DNA of 64,000 nucleotides from Sinorhizobium americanum (GTDB lineage: Bacteria; Pseudomonadota; Alphaproteobacteria; Rhizobiales; Rhizobiaceae): NCBI RefSeq assembly GCF_001651855.1, contig NZ_LNQC01000041.1, forward strand, positions 1 to 64,000. The letters are read 5' to 3'. The translations under genes were made by a program, and so were the position numbers. Shown in pieces: positions 186 through 15,852 of this stretch (positions are counted from its first letter, which is position 1; each line of letters begins with the position of its first letter). The notes beneath the pieces are model-generated. The model made no database searches. It was not told where the DNA came from and worked only from the letters and a program-made list of their open reading frames with translations.

Positions 186-1538
186 TTAAGCCGCCTTGCT
201 GTGCGTGCGCCTCGACTGCTCGATATAGGCGTCGAAGGCGGCTGCGACGACACGAATGAGGAAGCGTCCCTCCTCGCGGAGCCGGATGACACCGTCGGCA
301 TTGTCGAGGATGCCGTCATCTTCAAGCATTGCGAGCTTGGTGTTGCCCTGGAGCAGGAGTTGCGGATCGAAGCCGTGTGCCGTGGCAATCGCTGGAACAT
401 CGGCGCCGAAGTCGCACATCAGCCGTTCGATGATGCTTGCCCTGAGCCGATCTTCGGCCGTCAGCCGATAGCCCTTCACCGTTGCCAGCCGACCCGACGC
501 GATGTGCTGGGCGTAGAGCCCAGGTGGCACCTCGTTCTGCACATAGCCGCCCGCCATCCGGCCGATTGCCGAGGCGCCGAGGCCGATGAGAGTCTCGCAG
601 GCATCTGTGGTGTAGCCCTGGAAATTGCGGTGCAGTTGACCTCTTGCCTGGGCGATCGCCAGGCTGTCGTCCGGCCGGGCGAAATGGTCGAGGCCGATGC
701 GGCGGTAGCCGGCGGCGACGAGGGTCGCGGCGATCGCCTCGGCCTGGGCGATGCGGCCCTCCGCATCGGCAAGCGCAGCCTCGTCGATCAGTTTCTGGTG
801 CTTCTTGAAGTTCGGGATATGGGCATAGCCGAAGACGGCGAAACGCTCGGGTCCCATGCGGACAGCGGCTTGCGCCGTCGCGATGCAGGACTCGACCGTC
901 TGGTGCGGCAGGCCGTAGATCAGATCGAAATTGATGCTGTCGACGCCGGCTGTGCGCAGCCGCGTGACCGCATCCAAGGTCTGTTCCTCGCTCTGGATGC
1001 GGTTGATCGCCTTTTGCACGACCGGATCGAAGCTCTGAACGCCGAGACTTGTGCGGCAGACGCCGGCCTCGCCGAGAGCCTTTGCCATGTCCGGTTCCAG
1101 GGTGCGCGGGTCGATTTCGACCGCAATTTCAGCCGTGTTGGCGAAATCGGAGTGCTCGCGCAGGAGTGCTGTTAGCCGCAGGAACTCCTCCGGCCGCATG
1201 ATCGTCGGCGTTCCCCCGCCGAAATGGACGTGATCGATGGTAAGCGGCGCACGCGTTCTTGCTGAGACGAGGCGGACTTCCTCGCGCAGCATGTCGAGGT
1301 AATCGAGGATCGGCCGGTCGCGCTGGGTGATCGTCGTGTGGCAGCCGCAGTACCAGCACATCGAACGACAGAAAGGGATGTGCAGGTAAAGAGATGCCGG
1401 CTTGTCCAGCGGCGCGGCGTCAAGCCAGCCGCCATAGGTGTCGGCGTCGACGGCGGGCGAGAAACGCGGCGCCGTCGGGTAGCTCGTGTAGCGCGGCAGG
1501 CGCGCCTCGCCATATTTCGCGACAAGGAACGGTTGCAT
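186..1538 (-). CDS. hemN: Oxygen-independent coproporphyrinogen III oxidase
   Basis: Radical-SAM enzyme that decarboxylates coproporphyrinogen III to protoporphyrinogen IX without O2, supplying haem under microaerobic or denitrifying conditions. The 450-aa product has the HemN-type cluster motif CRSMCWYC (C57, C61, C64) followed by GC, then HFGGGTPT and the SINFDLIYGLP segment typical of the family. I chose the ATG at 1538 because the protein from there begins MQPFLVAKYGEARLPRYTSYP, like other HemN proteins; a longer reading frame to 1664 adds a non-conserved tail. An FNR-type box at 1605-1618 lies about 73 bp upstream of this start, which suits activation by FixK/NnrR. It is transcribed away from the DUF2249 cassette. 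Very sure of the family. Confidence 0.95.
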   Translation of the reverse strand: MQPFLVAKYGEARLPRYTSYPTAPRFSPAVDADTYGGWLDAAPLDKPASLYLHIPFCRSMCWYCGCHTTITQRDRPILDYLDMLREEVRLVSARTRAPLTIDHVHFGGGTPTIMRPEEFLRLTALLREHSDFANTAEIAVEIDPRTLEPDMAKALGEAGVCRTSLGVQSFDPVVQKAINRIQSEEQTLDAVTRLRTAGVDSINFDLIYGLPHQTVESCIATAQAAVRMGPERFAVFGYAHIPNFKKHQKLIDEAALADAEGRIAQAEAIAATLVAAGYRRIGLDHFARPDDSLAIAQARGQLHRNFQGYTTDACETLIGLGASAIGRMAGGYVQNEVPPGLYAQHIASGRLATVKGYRLTAEDRLRASIIERLMCDFGADVPAIATAHGFDPQLLLQGNTKLAMLEDDGILDNADGVIRLREEGRFLIRVVAAAFDAYIEQSRRTHSKAA

Positions 1539-1604: not shown

Positions 1605-1618
1605 TTGACCAATATCAA
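1605..1618. promoter_or_regulatory. FNR/FixK-type box between hemN and the DUF2249 cassette
   Basis: TTGACCAATATCAA, an inverted repeat with TTGA and TCAA half-sites. It is centred about 73 bp from the hemN start on the minus strand, leaving room for a class II promoter. It could also serve the plus-strand DUF2249 gene at 1770. The half-sites match the FixK/FNR consensus TTGAT-N4-ATCAA with one change. Confidence 0.75.
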
Positions 1619-1769
1619 GGAAAAGGACGAAGGAGCTTCTCGCGAATTGTTTGCTCACCGTCAAAGTGTCCGAGCGGGCCTGAAGCTACGGTCGGCCAAG
1701 TTCCGGCAGGGTGAGCCGCCGTCATGCCGGAGCAGACGAGGGGCGGCCATAAAGAGAATTGCCACGACA

Positions 1770-2045
1770 ATGACGGACACAAAGCCATCTATCGACGTTC
1801 GCACCGTTCCGCCGCGCGAGCGTCATCCGCGAATTTTCGGCATGCTCGGCGCACTGCTGCCGGGCGGTTCGATGCAGGTCACCAGCGACCACGACCCGCG
1901 CCCCCTCCATTACCAGTTGGAAACGAATTTTCCGGGCCAGTTCGGCTGGGATTATCTGGAAGAGGGACCGGAGATATGGCGCGTCGAAATCGCTCGCCTG
2001 GAAGACGGGGCGGGTTGCGAATGCTGCTGCGGGTCGGATCATTGA
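1770..2045 (+). CDS. DUF2249 domain protein (single domain)
   Basis: A 91-aa protein that is almost entirely one DUF2249 domain: IDVRTVPPRERHPRIF near the N-terminus, then DHDPRPLHYQ, FGWDYLEEGPEIWRVEI and a cysteine-rich tail ECCCGSD. The ATG at 1770 was preferred over an earlier start at 1605 because homologous sequence begins right at the DVR motif. The function of DUF2249 is not established; such proteins occur beside denitrification and anaerobic haem genes. The tail CECCCG could bind a metal, which is inference. It is the first gene of a tight plus-strand run continuing with the membrane protein about 35 bp downstream. Confidence 0.85.
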   Translation: MTDTKPSIDVRTVPPRERHPRIFGMLGALLPGGSMQVTSDHDPRPLHYQLETNFPGQFGWDYLEEGPEIWRVEIARLEDGAGCECCCGSDH

Positions 2046-2079
2046 CCCGCTTCAGCTGCACGCGGTGATCTCAAGACGG

Positions 2080-3447
2080 ATGAGGCGAATGCCGGGCGCC
2101 ACGCTTTCCCGATGGACGATGTCCTATTTCGCTGCCGCCTGCCTGTTCCTGCTGATCGGCGAGGTCATGATGGTGACGGGTTGCGGCTATCCGGTCGTGG
2201 CCATCGATGCTCCGGAAACCTTGGCGCTTGTCCACGTTCTCGCCATCGGCTGGCTGAGCCTGCTGATGGTGGGAGCGCTCCTGCAATTCGTGCCGGTGCT
2301 GGTCGCCGCGCCGTTACGCGGCCGGCGGCTTGCGCTACCGGTCCTGCTACTCCTCGTCACGGGGCTCCTCCTGCTCGCCGGCGGCTTTGGTGCCCTGGCG
2401 GGTGTTGGCGTGCTTTCGCCCGCCATGCTGCCGCTCGGCGCGTTGCTTCTGGTCACCGGCTTCGGGCTTGCCGCCGCGATGCTGGCCGCAACACTTTTTG
2501 CAGCGCGCCCGCTACCGCTGCCGGCTCGTTTCGTCGGCCTCGGCCTGCTCGCGCTGGTGGCGACGGCTCTGATCGGCGCCGCTTTTGCACTCGCCCTTTC
2601 GGGCACTGTCGCGACCGGCCCCCTCATCAGGCTGCTCGTTCATGGCGTACCGCTCCACGCCGCCTCGGGTCTCGGCGGCTGGTTGACCCTCACGGCCGTC
2701 GGGGTCAGCTATCGACTGCTGCCGATGTTCATGCTTGCGCCCGAGGAAGCGCACGGCACGTCCCATTTCGTCTGGTGGGTAGGCAGCGCCGCACTGGCGC
2801 TCGTCGCGGCCCGCACCGCCTGGCTTGTCCTCGATGCCTCGGCCGTGGAGGAACCGCTCGCGCTTGCAGCGCTTCTTGCCGCTGCCGCCGTCATTCTCTA
2901 CTGCGCCGATGTGATCCGCTTGTTTCGCGAGCGCCGGCGCAGGGCGGTGGAACTCAACATCCGCGCCAGCTATGCAGCGTTTGCCGCGCTTCTCCTGTCC
3001 GTGGTGCTGTTTATCATTCCGGGCACAAGGGCCGCGGCCGGCGAGGGGGCTGCGGCTCTCGTCTATCTTTTCGTCTTCGGCTGGCTTACCGGACTGGGGC
3101 TCGCCCAGCTTTACAAGATCGTTCCCTTCCTGACCTGGCTCGAATGCTATGGCACCGTTCTCGGCCGCGCCGCGGTTCCCCGTGTGCAGGATCTGGTCCG
3201 CGAGGGCCGCTCGAGCCTCTGGTTCTGCCTCTACTACGGCGCCGTGACGGCGGCCACGGGGTCGCTTTTTGCCGGAAGCGCCCCCTGGTTTCGCGCTGCG
3301 CTGCTGCTGCAGCTCGTCGCCACCGTCGGCCTCACGGCGGAACTCGTGCGCGCTCGGATGCTTTCATCCGTTGCCGAGCCCCTTCGTTTCCCGCTCGGGG
3401 CGCCCAGACCCAATCTCTTTCTTCCAATCTCTCGACAACAGGAGTGA
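2080..3447 (+). CDS. Polytopic membrane protein, haem-copper-subunit-I-like
   Basis: A 455-aa, very hydrophobic protein with about twelve predicted membrane segments. Histidines fall within or at the edge of helices in LVHVLAIGWLSLLMVGALLQ and LVHGVPLHAASGLGG, the kind of H-x(n)-GW-x(n)-GA pattern seen in cbb3/NO-reductase subunit I relatives and in some NnrS-like proteins. I could not see the full set of copper-centre ligands, so I do not call it an oxidase. The start is uncertain: GTG at 2065, ATG at 2080 or ATG at 2089. It lies between two DUF2249 genes and only 3 bp from the second, so the products probably work together. Role inferred as haem- or NO-related. Confidence 0.7.
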   Translation: MRRMPGATLSRWTMSYFAAACLFLLIGEVMMVTGCGYPVVAIDAPETLALVHVLAIGWLSLLMVGALLQFVPVLVAAPLRGRRLALPVLLLLVTGLLLLAGGFGALAGVGVLSPAMLPLGALLLVTGFGLAAAMLAATLFAARPLPLPARFVGLGLLALVATALIGAAFALALSGTVATGPLIRLLVHGVPLHAASGLGGWLTLTAVGVSYRLLPMFMLAPEEAHGTSHFVWWVGSAALALVAARTAWLVLDASAVEEPLALAALLAAAAVILYCADVIRLFRERRRRAVELNIRASYAAFAALLLSVVLFIIPGTRAAAGEGAAALVYLFVFGWLTGLGLAQLYKIVPFLTWLECYGTVLGRAAVPRVQDLVREGRSSLWFCLYYGAVTAATGSLFAGSAPWFRAALLLQLVATVGLTAELVRARMLSSVAEPLRFPLGAPRPNLFLPISRQQE

Positions 3448-3450
3448 TCA

Positions 3451-3972
3451 ATGAACCCTGCACCCCGAGACCTCGACGTTCGGCCTCTATTGAGGAGCGG
3501 CGGCGAGCCGTTCCAGGCCATCATGGAGGCGGTCAGCGGCCTTGCGCCCGGTCAGGCTTTGCGGCTTTTCGCGCCTTTCCGTCCGCAGCCGCTGTTCAAG
3601 GTGATGGAAAGCCGCGGCTTCGGCCATGCGGCGAAAGAGATCGAAGGCGGCGACTGGGAGGTTCTGTTCACGCCGCAGGAGACGGCCCCGGTCGAAGTGT
3701 CCGCCGATGCACAAGATCCTGAGGCCTGGCCGGATCCGAGCGAGCATCTCGATCTGACGGAGCTCGACCCGCCCGAGCCGATGGTGCGCATTCTCGCCGC
3801 GGTCGAGCGGCTGCAGCCAGGCCAAGTCCTTTTCGCCCTGCTTTCGCGCGAGCCGGTCTTCCTCTTCCCCGAGCTTGCCAGCCGCGGCCATCAGTGGGCG
3901 GGCAATTTCGACGAAAGCCGCACCACGTTCCGGATATTCGTCCGCTCTGGCGGGAAGGGGGTGACATCATGA
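3451..3972 (+). CDS. Tandem DUF2249 protein
   Basis: A 173-aa soluble protein built of two DUF2249-like repeats: residues about 8-73 (LDVRPLLRSGGEPFQ to GGDWEVLFTP) and about 100-167 (LDLTELDPPEPMVR to FRIFVRSGG), joined by an acidic linker. Each repeat has the family's GQ-x(3)-L/R-P-x-PLF core and an F/W-terminated strand. No cysteine motif is visible. It starts 3 bp after the membrane-protein stop and overlaps the DUF59 gene by ATGA, so it belongs to the same operon. Biochemical role unknown. Confidence 0.85.
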   Translation: MNPAPRDLDVRPLLRSGGEPFQAIMEAVSGLAPGQALRLFAPFRPQPLFKVMESRGFGHAAKEIEGGDWEVLFTPQETAPVEVSADAQDPEAWPDPSEHLDLTELDPPEPMVRILAAVERLQPGQVLFALLSREPVFLFPELASRGHQWAGNFDESRTTFRIFVRSGGKGVTS

Positions 3973-4262
3973 CCGAAGCGTTGAACGAGACGGTCTGCGG
4001 CGCGATCCGCGACGCGCTCCGCATGATCATCGATCCCGAACTGGGTCGCAACATCGTCGACCTCGGCCTCATCTACGACGTCTCCGTCGAGGATGGTGGC
4101 ATCGCCCATGTGACGATGACGACGACCACGAAGGGATGTCCGGCCAGTGAATATCTGAAGGAGGCGGTCCGCAACTGCGTCTGGTATGTGCCGGGCGTGG
4201 AATATGCCGAAGTCCGGTTGACCTACGAGCCAGCCTGGACAACGGAGATGATGATGAACTGA
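3969..4262 (+). CDS. DUF59 / MIP18-family iron-sulfur maturation-type protein
   Basis: A 97-aa protein with the DUF59 layout: helical start AIRDALRMIIDPELGRNIVDLGLIY, strands, then TTTTKGCPASEYLKEAVRN with the conserved cysteine, and a final VRLTYEPAW strand. The family (SufT, PaaD N-terminal part, MIP18) assists assembly or insertion of Fe-S clusters. Its ATG overlaps the preceding stop (ATGA), indicating translational coupling to the tandem DUF2249 gene. Being at the end of a denitrification cassette suggests service to a metalloprotein made there, which is inference. Confidence 0.85.
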   Translation: MTEALNETVCGAIRDALRMIIDPELGRNIVDLGLIYDVSVEDGGIAHVTMTTTTKGCPASEYLKEAVRNCVWYVPGVEYAEVRLTYEPAWTTEMMMN

Positions 4263-4347: not shown

Positions 4348-5559
4348 TCAGCGGAGCGTCCTGCGCTTGCGGACGAGGATCGGGCCGTATTCGAGGCAGA
4401 ACAGCGCGAAGGCCAGGATCCAGAGGCCCCCGGACACGGCGTAGAGGGCAGTCGCCGCCTCGGGCAGCACTTCTGCAAGCGGCCGCAGCACGGCCGCGAG
4501 CAGGATGGCGGCGTAGGAGGCGATCGTCGGGCGCGACGCCGACAACGCATGTCCGGTATGGCCGCGGCTCGCCCGCGTCATCACCGCCAGCATCATCGAG
4601 GCGATCGCCCCGACCGTCAGCACATGCATGACGGAGTGCTCCTCGACGAAACCGAGCGCCGCGAAGCCGATTGCAGCGAAGCCCAGGGGAACGAAGGCAT
4701 AGGCCAGGTGCAGGATGACGAGCAGCTGTTCCGGCCAAGTGGCCCAGCCCCGCCAGCGTCCGAGACGGATGAAGTGCAGCAGGGCTGCGGCAAGGCCCGT
4801 AAGCGCCGTGGCCGGATGCTCCGGCAAGAGCGTCCACGAGCCGAGTGCGGCAATCCCTGCGAGGATCGTGAGCGTATCGAAGCGATTGTAGGGAACCGGA
4901 AAGTCGGTTCGGCCGAAGCGGTTCAGCCAATTGCGGGTGAAGCTCGGCAGGATTCGCCCGCCGACGATGGTAACGAGCGCCACATAGGCCGAGATGCCGA
5001 GGCGCATCGCAACATGCGCATGATCACCGGTGATCACCGCCACATGAAAGCAGGCATTGGCGAGAGACAGGGCCAGGAGACCGCCGAGCACCTTCAAGTC
5101 CTTCCATTTGCGGCCGGCGATCACCTCGCGGGCGCAGATCAGAAGCAGCGCTGGAAGGAACAGACTGTCGATCGCCGCCGCGGCCGGAACGCCGATCGCA
5201 TCCGGCGCAAGCAGGGCGGCGCGTCCCGCCAGCCAGAGAGCGAACAGTCCGGCGAGCGGCCAACCCGAGACCGGCAGGCGGCCGGTCCAGTTCGGCACTG
5301 CCGTCAGGAGAAAACCGGCAAGAACGGCGGAGGCGAAGCCGAACAGCATTTCATGCGCATGCCAGGCGTGAGCGCCGTAGCTGCCGCCTAGTTCGAAATG
5401 ACCGGCGAGTGCGGCGATCCACAGGCTCATGGCGGAGATCGCCCAGAGCGCCGCTCCGAGGAAAAACGGCCGGAAACCGTATGAGAAAAGCACAGGCCCC
5501 GTCCGTCCCAGGCCCCGCGGGACGTGGCCGGGCCGCTCGGCCAGCTTCGATCCATTCAT
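4348..5559 (-). CDS. nnrS: NnrS family haem-copper membrane protein
   Basis: A 403-aa membrane protein with about twelve helices and the NnrS signature HAWHAHEMLFGFASAVLAGF (residues about 64-83) followed by LLTAVPNWTG. NnrS proteins bind haem and copper and are tied to protection from, or metabolism of, nitric oxide. The start at 5559 (MNGSKLAER) has a good CAGGAG site; a longer frame to 5703 lacks NnrS similarity. An NnrR-type box (5617-5630) is centred about 64 bp upstream. It faces nirK divergently, so one intergenic region controls both NO production and NO handling. Confidence 0.92.
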   Translation of the reverse strand: MNGSKLAERPGHVPRGLGRTGPVLFSYGFRPFFLGAALWAISAMSLWIAALAGHFELGGSYGAHAWHAHEMLFGFASAVLAGFLLTAVPNWTGRLPVSGWPLAGLFALWLAGRAALLAPDAIGVPAAAAIDSLFLPALLLICAREVIAGRKWKDLKVLGGLLALSLANACFHVAVITGDHAHVAMRLGISAYVALVTIVGGRILPSFTRNWLNRFGRTDFPVPYNRFDTLTILAGIAALGSWTLLPEHPATALTGLAAALLHFIRLGRWRGWATWPEQLLVILHLAYAFVPLGFAAIGFAALGFVEEHSVMHVLTVGAIASMMLAVMTRASRGHTGHALSASRPTIASYAAILLAAVLRPLAEVLPEAATALYAVSGGLWILAFALFCLEYGPILVRKRRTLR

Positions 5560-8837: not shown

Positions 8838-9281
8838 GTGCGCATAATCGCAAAGGGCGCCGCAGCCGCCGCAATTCTTGTTGCCTTCACCGGCACCGCA
8901 TTCGCCGCCGATTTCGAGGTTCATATGCTGAACAAGGGCGCGGAAGGATCGATGGTGTTCGAGCCGGCATTCGTCAAGGTCAATCCGGGCGACAGCGTCA
9001 CTTTCGTGCCGACTGACAAGGGGCACAATGTCGAAACCATCAAGGACATGATCCCCGACGGAGCCGCCCCCTTCAAAAGCAAGATGAACGAGACATACAA
9101 GGTGACGTTCGATGCACCCGGCGTCTACGGCGTCAAATGTGCCCCGCATGTCGGAATGGGCATGGTCGGCGTTGTGGTCGTCGGCGATGCGCCCGCCAAT
9201 GTCGAGAAGGTCAAGGGCGTCAAACTGCCGAAGAAGGCTCAGGAGCGCCTTGACGCGGCCCTTGCAGCTGCTCTCCAATAA
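8838..9281 (+). CDS. Pseudoazurin, periplasmic blue copper electron carrier
   Basis: A 147-aa precursor with a Sec signal ending TAFA-ADF. The mature part has the pseudoazurin pattern: an upstream His in KGHNVET, and C, H and M in [11 protein letters not shown], giving the type 1 copper site. It donates electrons to NirK. The start is GTG (8838) with a strong AAGGAG 7 nt upstream, and homologous sequence begins at this point. Its own FNR-type box lies upstream, so it is an independent transcription unit between nnrR and nap. Confidence 0.93.
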
Positions 9282-9414
9282 TCGATCCACAGTATGACAA
9301 CTCTATCATGGGTGCCGGCGCAATATACCAGGTGCGCCGGCCGGTCGCGCCGGCGAAACTTGATCTTTTAGGAATACTAAATGCGCCGATAATTCGTCTC
9401 GCCGCTGTCAGTAA

Positions 9415-9428
9415 TTGACGGAAATCAA
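9415..9428 (+). promoter_or_regulatory. FNR/FixK-type box upstream of napE
   Basis: TTGACGGAAATCAA, differing from the FixK consensus TTGAT-N4-ATCAA at one base. It is centred about 120 bp before the napE ATG, implying a leader of roughly 80 nt. The stretch 9282-9541 holds no gene; it also contains GC inverted repeats at 9314-9341 that may end the pseudoazurin transcript. Confidence 0.75.
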
Positions 9429-9541
9429 TTCGGTACGCAAAGAATTAGTGTAGGTATAAATTATTTAGGCGCTCCCTTTATTTTTGTATGCACCGCGCTA
9501 GACATTCTAAATGTGCCTGAACTCCAGGAGGGAGACGCAAG

Positions 9542-9727
9542 ATGCCTGATCGCGATCGGAGCACGGCGGGCCCTTTGCGGTCGCAGAGGAAAACCGAGTT
9601 CCTTACCTTTCTCGTCTTGGCGTTCGGCATCTGGCCGATCGTGGCCGTGGGCGTGGTCGGTGCCTATGGATTTCTCGTCTGGATGTTCCAGGTCATCTTC
9701 GGGCCACCCGGCCCGCCAGCGCATTGA
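9542..9727 (+). CDS. napE: NapE, small membrane subunit of periplasmic nitrate reductase
   Basis: A 61-aa protein with a basic N-terminus (RSQRKTEFLTF) and one transmembrane helix (LVLAFGIWPIVAVGVVGAYGFLVWMF), matching NapE. The exact role is unclear; it is found in many napEFDABC operons. RBS AGGAGGGAGACG precedes the ATG. First gene of the nap operon, 9 bp from napF. Confidence 0.9.
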   Translation: MPDRDRSTAGPLRSQRKTEFLTFLVLAFGIWPIVAVGVVGAYGFLVWMFQVIFGPPGPPAH

Positions 9728-9736
9728 GAGCCGCCC

Positions 9737-10237
9737 ATGGGTGCAGGTGTCGACATATCAAGGCGCAACTTTCTGCGCTGCCGCTCCGAGGGGAGGCGCC
9801 GACGTGTCCTCCCGCCCGGAGTAACCGCCGCGGGCCTTGAGTCCTGCACGGGGTGCGGGAGATGCGTCGACGTCTGTCCGACACACATCATCCGGCTGAT
9901 CGGGGACCGCCCGGCGCTCGATTTCTCCATCGCGGAATGCACCTTCTGCGGCCAATGCGCGGAGCTCTGTCCCGAGCCGGTCTTTACCGGCCGGCCACAG
10001 CGCTTCCCCCACATCGTGATGATCGGCGAGAGGTGTCTCGCCAGGAATGGCACGGATTGCCAGGCCTGTCGCGACGCCTGTCCGACGGAGGCGATCCGCT
10101 TCCGTCCGCGGGTCGGCGGTCCGTTCCTGCCGGAGCTCGAGCAAGAGGCTTGTACGGGCTGCGGCGCCTGTCTTGCCGTCTGTCCGGTGGCGGCCATTGG
10201 CGTTCGGGAAGTGCGAGGGGAGAGCGTCTATGTCTGA
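9737..10237 (+). CDS. napF: NapF, cytoplasmic ferredoxin-type protein
   Basis: A 166-aa protein with four cysteine clusters (CTGCGRCVDVCP, CTFCGQCAELCP, CQACRDACP, CTGCGACLAVCP) for [4Fe-4S] centres. NapF interacts with NapA before export and is thought to help load its Fe-S cluster. The N-terminal ISRRNFLRCR is basic, as in other NapF proteins. The stop overlaps the napD start by 8 bp. Confidence 0.93.
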   Translation: MGAGVDISRRNFLRCRSEGRRRRVLPPGVTAAGLESCTGCGRCVDVCPTHIIRLIGDRPALDFSIAECTFCGQCAELCPEPVFTGRPQRFPHIVMIGERCLARNGTDCQACRDACPTEAIRFRPRVGGPFLPELEQEACTGCGACLAVCPVAAIGVREVRGESVYV

Positions 10238-10478
10238 TCCGCACGCGCCCTATCACATCTCCAGCGCCGTCGTCGTGACGATGCCGAATATGCAGGAGCG
10301 CGTCGTGGCTCTCCTTGCCGAAATGCCGAATGTCGAGGTCCACGCGCATCAGCACGGAAAGATTGTCGTCGTGATCGAGGGAACGAGCACAGGAATGCTC
10401 GGCGAAATCCTGTCGCGCATCTCGCTGCTCGAGGGCGTGGTGGCAGCCAATATGGTGTTTGAGCATGTCGAAGCTTAG
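10230..10478 (+). CDS. napD: NapD, NapA maturation chaperone
   Basis: An 82-aa protein of the NapD family: [42 protein letters not shown], then [16 protein letters not shown]. NapD binds the Tat signal of NapA and delays export until cofactors are inserted. The ATG at 10230 overlaps napF; a longer upstream frame carries no NapD sequence. The gene ends 13 bp before napA. Confidence 0.92.
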
Positions 10479-10491
10479 GGAGACGACCGCC

Positions 10492-12996
10492 ATGACCGGC
10501 GAACTGACGCGGCGTGAAATCTTGAAGGCGCATGCCGCCGGCATCGCCGCAGCCACTGCGGGCATAGCGCTTCCAGCCGCGGCGCAGCCCGTGCCGGGCG
10601 GTGTGGAAGCGTTGCAGATCAAATGGGCGAAGGCACCTTGCCGCTTCTGCGGCACCGGCTGCGGCGTCATGGTCGGCGTCAAGGAGGGGCAGGTCGTCGC
10701 CACCCATGGCGACATGCAGGCCGAGGTCAATCGTGGCCTCAACTGCATCAAGGGCTATTTCCTTTCGAAGATCATGTACGGTGCCGACCGCCTGAAAACG
10801 CCGTTGCTGCGTAAGCGCAACGGCACCTTTGCCAAGGACGGCGAGTTCGAGCCGGTCAGTTGGGACGAAGCCTTCGACGTCATGGCAGAGCAGGCGAAGA
10901 GGGTGCTGAGGGAGAAGGGACCGACCTCCGTCGGTATGTTCGGCTCCGGCCAATGGACGATCTTCGAAGGCTATGTGGCCACGAAGCTGATGCGCGCCGG
11001 TTTCCGCTCCAACAATCTCGATCCCAATGCCCGCCACTGCATGGCATCGGCCGCCTATGCCTTCATGCGCACCTTCGGCATGGACGAGCCGATGGGCTGC
11101 TATGACGATTTCGAACATGCCGATGCCTTCGTGCTCTGGGGCTCGAACATGGCGGAGATGCACCCGATCCTGTGGACGCGGCTTGCCGATCGCAGGCTTG
11201 GACATGAACATGTCAAGGTGGCGGTGCTGTCGACCTTCACGCATCGGAGCATGGACCTCGCCGATATCCCGGTCGTCTTCAAGCCGGGCACCGATCTCGC
11301 GATCCTCAATTACGTCGCCAACCACATCATTGAGACGGGCCGGGTGAACGAGGATTTCGTCAGGAAGCACGCAACCTTCATGGTTGGCGCCACCGACATC
11401 GGCTACGGCCTGCGGCCCGACAATCCGCTCGAGGTGAAGGCGACGAACGCCAAGGACGCGGCGAAGATGACGCCGAGCGACTTCGAGAGTTTCAAGACGT
11501 TCGTGTCGGAGTACACGCTCGAGAAGACCGTCGAACTGACCGGGGTCGAGGCGGGGTTCCTCGAGCAGTTGGCCGACCTCTACGCCGATCCCAGCCGCAA
11601 GGTAATGTCGCTCTGGACCATGGGGTTCAATCAGCATGTGCGCGGCGTCTGGGTCAACCACATGGTCTACAACCTCCATCTGCTGACCGGCAAGATCTCC
11701 GAGCCCGGCAACAGCCCGTTCTCGCTGACCGGCCAGCCGTCGGCCTGCGGCACGGCACGCGAGGTCGGTACCTTCGCCCACCGGCTGCCGGCCGACATGA
11801 CGGTGACCAATCCGGAGCATCGCAAGCACGCGGAGGAAATCTGGCGCATTCCCCAAGGCTTAATCCCGGAGAAGCCCGGCTACCATGCCGTCGAGCAGGA
11901 CCGCATGCTGAAGGACGGCAAGCTCAATTTCTATTGGGTGCAGGTCAACAACAACGTCCAGGCGGCTCCCAACACCGAGAACGAGACCTATCAGGGCTAC
12001 CGCAACCCGGACAATTTCGTCGTCGTCTCGGACGTCTATCCGACGATCACCGCGATGAGCGCCGATCTGATCCTGCCGGCCGCCATGTGGGTGGAGAAGG
12101 AGGGCGCCTATGGCAATGCCGAGCGCCGAACCCATGTCTGGCATCAACTCGTCAATGCGCCCGGCGAGGCGCGTTCGGATCTCTGGCAAATGGTGGAGTT
12201 CTCGAAGCGCTTCACCACCGACGAGGTCTGGCCGGCCGATATCCTCGACGCCAATCCCGGCTATCGCGGCAAAACCCTCTATGACGTGCTCTTCAAGAAC
12301 GGCAATGTCGATCGCTTCCCGGCAAGCGAAATCAATAAGGAATATGCCAACCGGGAGGCAGAGGCCTTCGGCTTCTACATCCAGAAAGGCCTGTTCGAGG
12401 AATACGCCTCCTTCGGGCGCGGACACGGACATGACCTAGCGCCCTATGACCGTTACCACGAGGAGCGGGGACTCCGCTGGCCCGTCGTCAATGGCAAGGA
12501 GACGCTCTGGCGCTACCGGGAAGGCTATGATCCCTACGTGAAGCCGGGGGAGGGCGTGAAATTCTATGGTCGCCCGGACGGCAAGGCGGTAATCCTTGCC
12601 GTTCCCTACGAACCGCCGGCGGAATCACCCGATGACGAATACAATGTCTGGCTGGTGACGGGCCGCGTGCTCGAGCATTGGCATTCGGGCTCGATGACGA
12701 TGCGGGTGCCGGAGCTCTACAAGGCATTCCCCGGTGCAGTTTGTTTCATGAATGCCGGTGACGCCCGCGATCGCGGCATCAACCAGGGCGCCGAGGTGCG
12801 AATCGTTTCCCGTCGCGGCGAAATTCGCGCCCGCGTCGAGACGCGCGGCCGCAACCGCATGCCTCCCGGCGTCATCTTCGTTCCCTGGTTCGACGCCAGC
12901 AGGCTGATCAACAAGGTGACGCTTGACGCAACCGATCCCATCTCCAAACAGACGGATTTCAAAAAATGCGCGGTCAAAATCGTCTCTGTCGCATAA
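10492..12996 (+). CDS. napA: NapA, periplasmic nitrate reductase catalytic subunit
   Basis: An 834-aa molybdoenzyme that reduces nitrate to nitrite in the periplasm. The Tat signal is [19 protein letters not shown]. The [4Fe-4S] motif CRFCGTGCG and a later C in GLNCIKGY follow at residues about 44-85, and the Mo-ligand cysteine lies in [13 protein letters not shown]. The C-terminal cofactor domain ([23 protein letters not shown]) is intact and the length is normal. ATG 10492 gives the conserved Nap N-terminus; an in-frame ATG at 10459 lies within napD. Stop and napB ATG overlap (TAATG). Confidence 0.97.
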
Positions 12997-13469
12997 TGAG
13001 AAGCCCCGGATCGATGCTCGGGGCGCTGTTGGCGATCCTGTTCGTCGCAACGGGGGCGATCGCGCAAATGGCCGGCGAAAGGGTGCCGGAGCTTTCCGGG
13101 CCACCGCAGGAGATGGGGGAGGTGGAGGCGCATCCGATCCCCAAATGGGTCGTGGACGACGCTCGCAAGGAGCGCGCCTATCCCGACCAGCCGCCGGTCA
13201 TCCCACATTCGATCGAGGGCTATCAGCTTTCCGTCAACACGAACCGCTGCCTCTCCTGCCACAAGCGCGAACTCACGCAGGAGTCCGGCGCGCCGATGAT
13301 CAGCGTCACGCATTACATGACGCGCGAAGGCCAGATGCTCGCAGACGTTTCGCCGCGGCGCTACTTCTGCACGGCCTGCCACGTGCCGCAGGCGGATGTG
13401 CGGCCGCTTGTCGAAAACACCTTCCGGGACATGAGCGAGATGGGCGTCAAGCAGGCGGGGAGCGAGTAG
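12996..13469 (+). CDS. napB: NapB, dihaem cytochrome c subunit
   Basis: A 157-aa precursor with a signal peptide (LGALLAILFVATGAIAQ) and two CxxCH haem sites (CLSCH, CTACH), plus the HSIEGYQLSVNTNRC and SPRRYFC segments conserved in NapB. It passes electrons from NapC to NapA. The ATG at 12996 overlaps the napA stop (TAATG); an alternative ATG at 12966 lies inside napA. Confidence 0.95.
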   Translation: MRSPGSMLGALLAILFVATGAIAQMAGERVPELSGPPQEMGEVEAHPIPKWVVDDARKERAYPDQPPVIPHSIEGYQLSVNTNRCLSCHKRELTQESGAPMISVTHYMTREGQMLADVSPRRYFCTACHVPQADVRPLVENTFRDMSEMGVKQAGSE

Positions 13470-13472
13470 GCC

Positions 13473-14174
13473 ATGGCTCGGATCAAGCGTGTCTTGCTCT
13501 GGGTGTGGAAGGTTCTCACCACCCCGGCCGCAAACCTCAGCCTCGCTTTCCTGACGCTCGGCGGCTTTGTCGGCGGCGTGATCTTCTGGGGCGCCTTCAA
13601 CACCGCTTTGGAGCTCACCAATACGGAAACCTTCTGCGTCTCCTGTCACGAGATGCGGACAAATGTCTATGAGGAGCTGACGCGCACCATCCATTTCTCC
13701 AACCGCTCGGGGGTCAGGGCGTCCTGCCCCGACTGCCACGTGCCGCATGAATGGACGGACAAGATTGCTCGCAAGATGCAGGCCTCTAAGGAAGTCTGGG
13801 GCAAGATCTTCGGGACCATCAACACGCGCGAGAAATTCCTCAACCACCGCCTCGAACTTGCCAAGCATGAATGGGCGCGGCTCAAGGCCAATGACAGCCT
13901 CGAGTGCCGCAACTGCCACTCCTCGGCGGCGATGGACCTTTCCAAGCAGACGCAGCGCGCCGCCGAGATCCATACCCGATACCTGCTGCCTGGAAAGGCG
14001 ACCTGCATCGATTGCCACAAGGGCATCGCCCACGAACTGCCGAACATGCAGGGCGTCGAGCCCGGTTGGAAGCTGCCGCCCGAACTCGAGGGGGAGACGC
14101 TGCCCTCCACATCCGCCATAGACGAGCTAAAGCGGGCGATGAACGACATCCATAGGACAGCCTTGGAAAACTAG
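13473..14174 (+). CDS. napC: NapC, tetrahaem membrane quinol dehydrogenase
   Basis: A 233-aa NapC/NirT-family protein anchored by one N-terminal helix ([21 protein letters not shown]), with four CxxCH sites (CVSCH, CPDCH, CRNCH, CIDCH). It oxidises quinol and feeds NapB-NapA. It starts 3 bp after napB. With no napG or napH in the operon, electrons must enter through NapC. Confidence 0.95.
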
Positions 14175-14337
14175 TCCGTAGCCTCGGCCGGCCCACAATC
14201 CTGGGACGATTTGTTCCAGATGGGGCGGATGGCTGACAGGGCCAATATGGTCTATGGAAGGGCAAGACGCCGCGGCTGGGGCCGGCGCGTCGCGATGTTC
14301 GGAAGCAGCTAACGCGCACTCCGCGGTGGACAATGGA

Positions 14338-15852
14338 ATGCATTCAAGAGGTTTCGTGGAGAGCACACGGCTAGGGCGGTCGCTCATCGGATGGCGGGTG
14401 GATCGCGTTTCTGCCTTCATTATCGCGATCGCGGCCGTGGGGAGCGTTCTCGCACTGCAATTGGGTTTGCTGGAATTCATCGGCGACAGCATTGTCTTTC
14501 TTTCCTTCATCCCCGCCATAGTGATCACGGCGATGGTCGGCGACCTAAGACACGTCGCCTTGGCAACCGGCCTGTCGGTTATCGGAGCGCTGGTCGTTCA
14601 ACAGATCGGCAATGCCCCCGGGCCGAATGCCGGCGAACTGGCCATCTTCGTCTCGACAGTGTTTCTGATCGCGATTCTGGGAGAACTGCTTCGGGCGGCG
14701 AGACGGGCTGCGGATCAGGCGGAGGCCGCCGTCAGGACACGCGATGCCCATTTGCGATCGATACTGGACACGGTTCCGGACGCGACGGTGGTCAGTTCGG
14801 CAAATGGCACGATCGTCTCCTTCAATGCCGCCGCGGTCCGGCAGTTCGGCTATGCGGAACAGGAGGTCATCGGCGAGAACCTGCGCATCCTTATGCCGGA
14901 ACCCTATCGGCACGAGCATGACGGATATATGCAGCGGTACCTGAAAACCGGCGAAAAGCGCATCATCGGTATCGACCGGGTCGTCGTCGGACGGCGCAAG
15001 GATGGATCGACATTTCCGATGAAGCTCGCCGTCGGAGAGATGAAATCGGGCGGCGAACGGTTTTTCACCGGCTTCATCAGGGACCTGACGGAGCGGGAAG
15101 AGTCGGCGGCGCGGCTCGAACAGATCCAGGCTGAACTGGCGAGGCTCGCGCGGCTCAATGAAATGGGCGAAATGGCGTCGACGCTTGCGCATGAGTTGAA
15201 CCAGCCCCTATCGGCCATCGCAAACTATGCCCACGGCTGTACCAGGTTGCTGCGCGACATGGACGACAGCCTGGCTACGAGAATGCACGGAGCCCTGGAG
15301 GAGATTGCAAGCCAATCCCTGCGGGCCGGCCAGATCATCAAGCACCTGCGCGAATTCGTCATGAAGGGCGAAACGGAAAAGGCGCCCGAAGACATTCGCA
15401 AGCTGGTAGAGGAGGCCGGCGCGCTGGCTCTCGTCGGCTCCCGCGAGGGGGGCGTCAGGACCGTCTTCGAATACCTGCCCGGTGCCGAAATGGTGATGGT
15501 CGATCGCGTCCAGGTCCAGCAGGTCCTCATCAATCTGATGCGCAATGCTGTGGAGGCGATGCGACATGTCGACCATCGGGAGCTGACAATCCGCACGATG
15601 CCCGCCGGGCGGGGCGAGATCGCCGTCGTTGTGGAAGACACGGGCGGGGGCATCCCGAAGGAAATCGCCGGGCAGCTCTTCAAGCCGTTCGTCACGACCA
15701 AGGCGAGCGGGATGGGCATCGGCCTTTCGATCTCGAAGCGTATCGTCGAAGCGCATGGCGGTGAGATGACGGTCTCGAAAAATGCGGCCGGTGGCGCTAC
15801 CTTCCGGTTCACGCTTCCCGCCTATGCGGATGAAACGGATCGAGGCAAATGA
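14338..15852 (+). CDS. fixL: FixL, oxygen-sensing haem histidine kinase
   Basis: Membrane sensor kinase of the FixLJ system. The 504-aa protein has hydrophobic N-terminal helices (about residues 25-120), a PAS domain with the haem-pocket segment [11 protein letters not shown], an H-box ([15 protein letters not shown]), N-box ([12 protein letters not shown]) and glycine-rich ATP motifs ([15 protein letters not shown]). The ATG at 14338 gives almost exactly the 505-aa length of S. meliloti FixL; the frame is open to 14254, but that adds a non-conserved tail. It overlaps fixJ (ATGA). Low oxygen releases kinase activity and phosphorylates FixJ. Confidence 0.95.

Follow-up and report, generated by a model that had tools for sequence, protein, structure and literature searches.

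What might four tightly packed genes between hemN and nnrS accomplish in a denitrification block of Sinorhizobium americanum? The window analysed here, a stretch of 64,000 nucleotides, is the beginning of contig C41 (NZ_LNQC01000041.1), and the genes follow one another on its plus strand: a single-domain DUF2249 protein of 91 aa with a C-terminal CxCCC tail (1770..2045; Pfam PF10006, E 8e-29), a 455-aa membrane protein (2080..3447), a tandem DUF2249 protein of 173 aa (3451..3972; PF10006, E 6e-36 in two stretches, with PF01206 TusA on the second) and a DUF59 protein of 97 aa of the MIP18/SufT-like, iron-sulphur (Fe-S) assembly type (3969..4262; PF01883, E 1e-18). A first-pass annotation, made from the letters of the DNA, had read them as a cassette for maturing or protecting a metalloprotein, or for handling nitric oxide (NO); all four lie at the coordinates and on the strand it gave, and the tandem DUF2249 and DUF59 genes share the 4-base ATGA overlap (3969-3972) that it described. 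The location of the polytopic membrane protein stands as well, its start codon less so: the family consensus begins MxGAxLSRW, and the ATG at 2089 (452 aa) is therefore a likelier start than that at 2080. The answer developed below is that the cassette is real and conserved and that its central protein, to judge from a model with 12 helices, has the fold of a haem-copper oxidase with the catalytic ligands missing; lacking the reaction site of an oxidase, it probably helps to keep metal-containing proteins working while the cell makes NO.

GTDB representative genomes were scanned once with the membrane protein alone as query; among 146 relatives the best 80 loci were kept, the nearest of which, in S. 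fredii USDA 205 and S. shofinae, encode membrane proteins of 85 and 87% identity. Linkage was counted within set distances (tandem DUF2249 up to 200 bp downstream on the same strand, DUF59 up to 1.2 kb downstream, single DUF2249 up to 450 bp upstream). The tandem DUF2249 gene lies directly 3' of the membrane gene in 80/80 loci, a DUF59 gene follows in 75/80 and a single DUF2249 gene precedes it in 60/80. The first-pass annotation had named a lack of such linkage as evidence against its idea; the genome neighbourhoods reveal the opposite. Because the loci were fetched by the membrane protein only, and yet the tandem gene adjoins it in every one, the four-gene linkage is not chance, and the cassette as a conserved unit is well supported; the 80 loci come from related species and are therefore not independent. 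In its own genome the membrane gene is single-copy; of 72,556 plasmid records searched by tblastn, 114 contain the protein, and almost all of these come from rhizobia and relatives.

The membrane protein itself matches neither a Pfam nor an NCBIfam family at E 1, and its family profile finds 0 PDB sequence matches; a Pfam scan of 81 members gave COX1 in two (best E 0.25), and PF05940, the NnrS family, was not among the 23 families found. An AlphaFold2 (AF2) model built from 81 sequences (mean pLDDT 91.2, pTM 0.92) comprises 12 long helices, as in the 12-helix core common to the catalytic subunits CcoN and NorB. Among PDB structures, Foldseek ranks CcoN of cbb3 oxidase (3mk7, E 1.4e-6; 9g83) and NorB of cNOR (3o0r, E 2.4e-5; 4xyd) highest, with query-normalised TM scores of 0.59-0.67 against both; the best 50 of 138 matches are all haem-copper oxidases or complexes containing one, and no transporter occurs among them. 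An ordinary transporter was rejected as a candidate on this basis. The first-pass annotation had set an ordinary transporter fold without haem-type histidines as the outcome that would count against it, and the predicted structure instead displays an oxidase-type fold with two invariant histidines. The fold of the modelled protein and its membership of the haem-copper oxidase superfamily, as a distant relative, are well supported.

The "helix-embedded histidines" of the first-pass annotation hold good for these two residues, H52 and H193, which are the only histidines invariant across 81 rows. The loops carry 21 lysines and arginines on the N-terminal side versus 2 on the opposite one (11-16 versus 2-3 in six far members), which by the positive-inside rule places the N-terminus inside and the two histidines close to where helices II (H52) and VI (H193) end on the periplasmic side; oxidases likewise hold their haems on that side. 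Catalytic haem-copper oxidases and NO reductases have six conserved histidines as metal and haem ligands. Since the ligands of the catalytic site are missing, the protein is no ordinary oxidase or NO reductase; in contrast to CcoN and NorB, it has no ligands for a catalytic haem or for CuB/FeB, it shows an apparent unit order X-II-VI and it has DUF2249 and DUF59 genes as partners.

Relatives outside the cassette family sharpen this picture. In a phylum sample of 397 genomes, 47 contain a match (14 of them strong, 29 between E 1e-16 and 1e-37 and four weaker); the far subfamily is clearly homologous to that of the window (hhalign probability 100), and when the window protein is aligned with five cassette members and 14 far ones, H52 and H193 are invariant in 20/20 rows. 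Profiles were compared locally with hhalign, using alignments without length filter (7 CcoN, 32 NorB and 38 NnrS rows) and length-filtered sets in a rerun (35 CcoN, 27 NorB and 33 NnrS, NnrS at full length only). Helices I-IV of the far subfamily match helices IX-XII of CcoN with a probability of 96.8 (E 2e-10; again 96.8 after length filtering), and the full far profile matches CcoN with 67.9 (7 CcoN sequences), 94.4 (37) and 94.8 (length-filtered), reversed-profile controls staying below 1 in 15/15 comparisons. Pfam COX1 also appears below threshold in 2/7 far members scanned (profile positions 305-397 and 310-397). The sequence homology seen is thus with CcoN, not with NorB, and it is found via the far subfamily, the window subfamily on its own being weak. 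Far helices IX-XII match the same CcoN helices too (88.5; 77.5 filtered), so that the CcoN unit may be generic.

Within this alignment the far residue corresponding to H52 is paired with the second histidine of the CcoN GHVH motif in helix X, the low-spin haem b ligand of that helix; no histidine is present in the membrane protein where the first His of CcoN helix X aligns. The CcoN helix X motif H(x4)GW(x6)G(x6)P, containing this second His, recurs in helix II of the membrane protein. Gapless scans, run on alignments without length filter with 1000 column shuffles, place the CcoN helix X window on H52 with scores of 45 in the window subfamily and 63 in the far one, 0/1000 shuffles being as high in either; eight control families reach at most 1.8 and reversed profiles at most 3.0, while the true CcoN-NorB match scores 38. 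For the CcoN helix II window the best site is exactly H193 in both subfamilies (15.7 in the far one; 12/1000 shuffles as high), and the helix VI window prefers unit 3 of the far family (15.6; 9/1000 shuffles; controls at most 8.7). H52 and H193 are therefore plausible, on sequence grounds, as the ligands of one bis-histidine haem.

The same scans bear on the order of the three four-helix units. As sums, the order X-II-VI reaches 52 (window) and 94 (far), the normal order 23 and 18, and the third order 30 and 44; most of the advantage stems from helix X. In the NorB control the helix II and X windows fall in normal order, and the CcoN helix VI window scores 25.7 on NorB unit 1 versus 10.0 on unit 2, a warning that four-helix repeats cross-match. 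A cyclic shift of the unit order in the membrane protein is thus suggestive. A literature search aimed at a permuted haem-copper oxidase brought nothing relevant among the matches listed. If true, the cyclic order would bear on the origin of haem-copper oxidases from repeated four-helix units.

Twelve far loci were examined in stretches of 11-13 kb each, and all of them carry a gene with a hemerythrin domain close to the membrane gene (adjacent in 11 by our own gene picking, 2.6 kb off in L124). DUF2249 is found within these hemerythrin proteins above the Pfam cut-off in three cases (L113, L115, L118) and below it in five (L114, L117, L119, L120, L124), and was not seen in the remaining four (L116, L121, L122, L123); in L122 and L123, a separate short open reading frame (ORF) beside the membrane gene matches the tandem-DUF2249 profile (E 5e-13 and 6e-7). 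The 12 stretches yielded no NorB, NorC, NirK or NnrS, and the link of the membrane protein with hemerythrin and, in most far loci, with DUF2249 therefore extends beyond the denitrification cassette. The window cassette, unlike these neighbourhoods, has no hemerythrin domain by Pfam.

What the soluble partners contribute can be approached from their families. Both DUF2249 proteins belong to PF10006 (99.7 and 122.5 bits versus a cut-off of 29.5), presumably the same family as COG4309. In 64 aligned rows of the single-domain protein (the window protein and the best match of 63 loci), D40, W60 and W70 are conserved in 64, H41 in 61 and H19 in 59; its cysteines, confined to the tail, are variable (22-38/64), and it has 0 PDB sequence matches. 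The DUF59 protein scores 67.7 bits against the PF01883 cut-off of 23.5 and retains Cys57 in 76/76 rows, a conserved cysteine that it shares with the MIP18, SufT and PaaD families; it stays below the curated NCBIfam equivalog cut-offs for SUF_assoc, SufT and PaaD (TIGR02945, 85.9 versus 143.4 bits; TIGR03406, 69.9 versus 202.6; TIGR02159, 54.6 versus 108.15). The presence of an Fe-S-type partner, as the first-pass annotation had it, is borne out by this gene. Five loci lack DUF59; in four of them (L027, L032, L035 and L046; not L040) the tandem gene is followed by a member of a ten-member cluster, with Pfam DUF1858 in the one member checked. By eye, a signal-peptide-like start was seen in none of the three small proteins (no prediction program was run).

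Taken together, these features would fit a module, induced by NO and anoxia, for the upkeep or repair of Fe-S centres, and of di-iron centres in the far relatives, around a non-catalytic oxidase relative; we hold this reading tentatively, at somewhat under an even chance. The Fe-S/di-iron theme is drawn from DUF59, from the DUF1858-cluster gene at its position and from the hemerythrin genes of all 12 far loci, and would apply in the following manner: H52 and H193 would hold one low-spin haem, as helices X and II of the oxidases do, in a protein whose three four-helix units may follow one another in cyclically shifted order. This haem could connect the soluble partners with the quinol/cytochrome pool as an electron relay, or it could sense NO. 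The DUF2249 and DUF59 proteins, presumed to be physical partners of the membrane protein, would use the relay or the sensing to restore metal centres that NO from NirK has damaged, whether by insertion, reduction or repair. A bolder version takes the membrane protein for a natural cyclic permutant of a haem-copper oxidase, one that lost the catalytic site, retained a single bis-histidine haem and serves as membrane electron relay for a DUF2249/DUF59 (or DUF2249/hemerythrin) repair machine under NO stress; this version is rather doubtful. Among the matches listed, literature searches returned no respiratory-chain-linked DUF2249/DUF59 repair system. DUF2249-type proteins, noted since 2005 in regulons for NO and denitrification, still lack a mechanism, and an oxidase-fold protein without catalytic site would give the family a testable biochemical partner.

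Several observations weigh against the maintenance module. DUF59 is absent in 5/80 cassette loci and the upstream DUF2249 gene in 20/80, and no DUF59 was found in the 11-13 kb of the 12 far loci. The case for homology and for a haem site is carried by the far subfamily: for the window subfamily the same pair of helix units matches best, with a probability of 27.5 (E 6.5e-4; 28.3 filtered). There, the helix II window scores 2.7 at H193, in a near tie with another site (2.3), 364/1000 shuffles being as high and 6/10 controls higher (NorD 12.9, reversed far profile 8.7, NarI 7.3, NarK 5.0, reversed membrane-protein profile (MEM) 4.6, NirK 3.2), and the helix VI window falls on H52 without significance (5.8; 152/1000 shuffles). 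NorB, though the second structural match, gives no profile signal at full length or by unit (at most 3.0), and at full length neither NnrS nor NorB exceeds a probability of 1.3 against either subfamily. Finally, DrpA, a DUF2249 protein of Thermus, is reported to be periplasmic and would therefore not fit cytoplasmic partners (PMC6282519).

The surroundings of the cassette argue for a role in NO metabolism and help to judge the alternatives. NirK, NorB or NnrS occurs in the flanks of 52/80 loci; individually, NirK was counted in 33, NorB in 32, NnrS in 35, a CRP/FNR regulator in 48, Rrf2 in 20 and HemN in 24, numbers from ORF clusters that are lower bounds because not every flank extends to 8 kb and ORF picking misses some genes. 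An order sample of 249 genomes, drawn evenly, contains 10 strong carriers of the membrane protein and 239 others, the latter including genome G167 with a partial match (E 1e-8). NirK is present in 8/10 carriers versus 46/239 others (Fisher p 1e-4, these p values ignoring relatedness), NnrS in 10/10 versus 115/239 (p 8e-4), and cNOR NorB, the one type of NO reductase counted and called at E 1e-60 or better, in 5/10 versus 37/239 (p 0.014). The denitrification setting that the first-pass annotation had recognized is supported by the co-occurrence with nirK and nnrS, which is stronger than that with cNOR and therefore speaks for NO metabolism and against a strict cNOR accessory.

The last point concerns the rival that survives best, in which the cassette serves specifically to assemble NO reductase (or NirK), the membrane protein acting as a haem or metal scaffold during NorCB maturation. 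Probable co-transcription with nor genes in three rhizobia led to the proposal, in 2005, that COG4309 might be relevant to NO reductase (PMC1274295), and a norB cluster lies in the flanks of 32 of our 80 loci; a cNOR in half of the strong carriers, albeit still more than among the others, and far loci devoid, over their 11-13 kb, of NorB, NorC, NirK and NnrS matches weaken the strict form of this explanation, and as a whole it is unlikely.

A signalling device is suggested by work on Thermus, whose denitrification loci encode one single (DrpA) and one tandem (DrpB) DUF2249 protein, as the cassette does; studied as putative nitrate sensors, they leave dnr and nar expression nitrate-independent when both are missing (PMC6282519). 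By analogy, the membrane protein would sense NO, redox state or nitrate and tune NnrR/FixK-type regulation via DUF2249, consistent with the CRP/FNR gene near the cassette in 48/80 loci. DrpB carries an N-terminal DUF1858, whereas the tandem protein of the window has none by Pfam; in addition, no output domain is detected by Pfam and DUF59 is an Fe-S-type rather than a signalling component, all of which makes signalling quite unlikely. The Thermus and 2005 reports also render the first-pass label "uncharacterised" too strong for DUF2249 (PMC6282519, PMC1274295). Haloarchaeal DUF2249 proteins stand in a denitrification context as well, four such genes of Haloferax mediterranei being induced under denitrification (PMC11218638), and the word DUF59 does not occur, nor is a linked oxidase-like membrane gene mentioned, in the available text of the Thermus and haloarchaeal papers (PMC6282519, PMC11218638). 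The latter attributes a link between DUF2249 and the haem-copper oxidase superfamily to Pei et al. 2014 (PMC11218638), so that part of the present finding may already be in print. Expression of hemN2 and of a DUF1858 gene is reduced in Bradyrhizobium when nnrR is mutated (PMC6710368). A literature search by S. meliloti pSymA locus tags found no paper.

Regulation of the cassette by CRP/FNR-type proteins is suggested by two boxes between hemN and the first cassette gene, TTGACCAATATCAA (1605..1618) and TTGCTCACCGTCAA (1651..1664), the second 119 bp upstream of that gene. Over the whole window, the number of such boxes is not clearly above chance (11 versus 9.4 expected; 7 versus 3.5, with 6/100 shuffles as high). 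Within 350 bp before the cassette, a box occurs in 20/79 loci versus 2.3 expected from first-order random sequences, one of the 80 loci being left out for having less than 250 bp upstream; eight of the 20 are from Sinorhizobium/Ensifer, where the box is at -113 to -128.

The tandem DUF2249 protein gives rise to a further rival, in which TusA-like DUF2249 proteins pass a small molecule (an NO product, iron or a sulphur species) to the membrane protein for transport, as YeeD (TsuB) does with YeeE (TsuA). Its AF2 model (pLDDT 89, pTM 0.59; in the underlying alignment, A3, 12/80 loci were left out) has a TusA/SirA-like fold: the best PDB structural matches are TusA/SirA domains, one domain at a time (target TM 0.72-0.81 for the best four; best E 4e-3, none at 0.001), the YeeE-YeeD thiosulphate uptake complex ranks 2-4 among them, and TusA alone appears against PDB sequences (E 0.17-0.19). 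TusA sulphur carriers have an N-terminal CPxP cysteine. The tandem protein, for all its common fold, has no cysteine in its 173 aa and is therefore no TusA-type sulphur carrier; with an oxidase-like membrane fold and the transporter-free Foldseek result in addition, this alternative is distinctly unlikely. A novel type of catalytic reductase for NO or oxygen, to which the oxidase fold and the NO context might point, was rejected for its missing histidines (two invariant ones being too few for a haem b3 and CuB/FeB site, and none standing where CcoN helix X has its first histidine) and is very improbable.

Among the genes around the cassette, hemN is divergent (186..1532, minus strand; TIGR00538, 421.6 bits versus a cut-off of 325) and nnrS convergent (4348..5559, minus strand; PF05940, E 4e-114); beyond nnrS come nirK, a gene with an FGE-sulfatase domain at the place of nirV, a CRP/FNR regulator at that of nnrR, and pseudoazurin. 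NnrS resembles the membrane protein in being polytopic, in belonging to NO regulons and in often lying beside the cassette; a paralogous relationship was tried and rejected, as it has neither Pfam (PF05940) nor profile support (probability at most 1.3 at full length). The first His-bearing helix (HAH) of NnrS is matched by CcoN helix X (13.4), CcoN helix VI (15.1) and NorB helix X (15.5), so that NnrS may also start with an oxidase-type unit.

Further genes accompany the cassette in part of the loci. A 177-aa protein (cluster c16) often follows it (15/80 loci, e.g. L073:10174-10704) and by eye resembled truncated haemoglobin; the member checked has no Pfam match at 1e-3. The same holds for the checked member of cluster c17, a conserved 90-aa protein near the cassette in 13/80 loci (e.g. 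L076:5648-5917). In L050, L056, L064, L066 and L068, ferredoxin-cluster and lipoyl-synthase-cluster genes come after the cassette, a hint of Fe-S biology, joined in L064 and L066 by a DUF1971-cluster gene downstream (one member per cluster Pfam-checked). As for the respiratory enzymes of the genome itself, CcoN matches are split in two near residue 220 in both copies (G000:C55, about 117153-118473; G000:C75, about 76019-77331). The norECBQD genes lie on a separate contig (L155, G000:C42, about 9261-14878), not at its end, and the last ~39 codons of norB seem to be in another frame; in S. fredii (L002), unlike here, norECBQD adjoins hemN.

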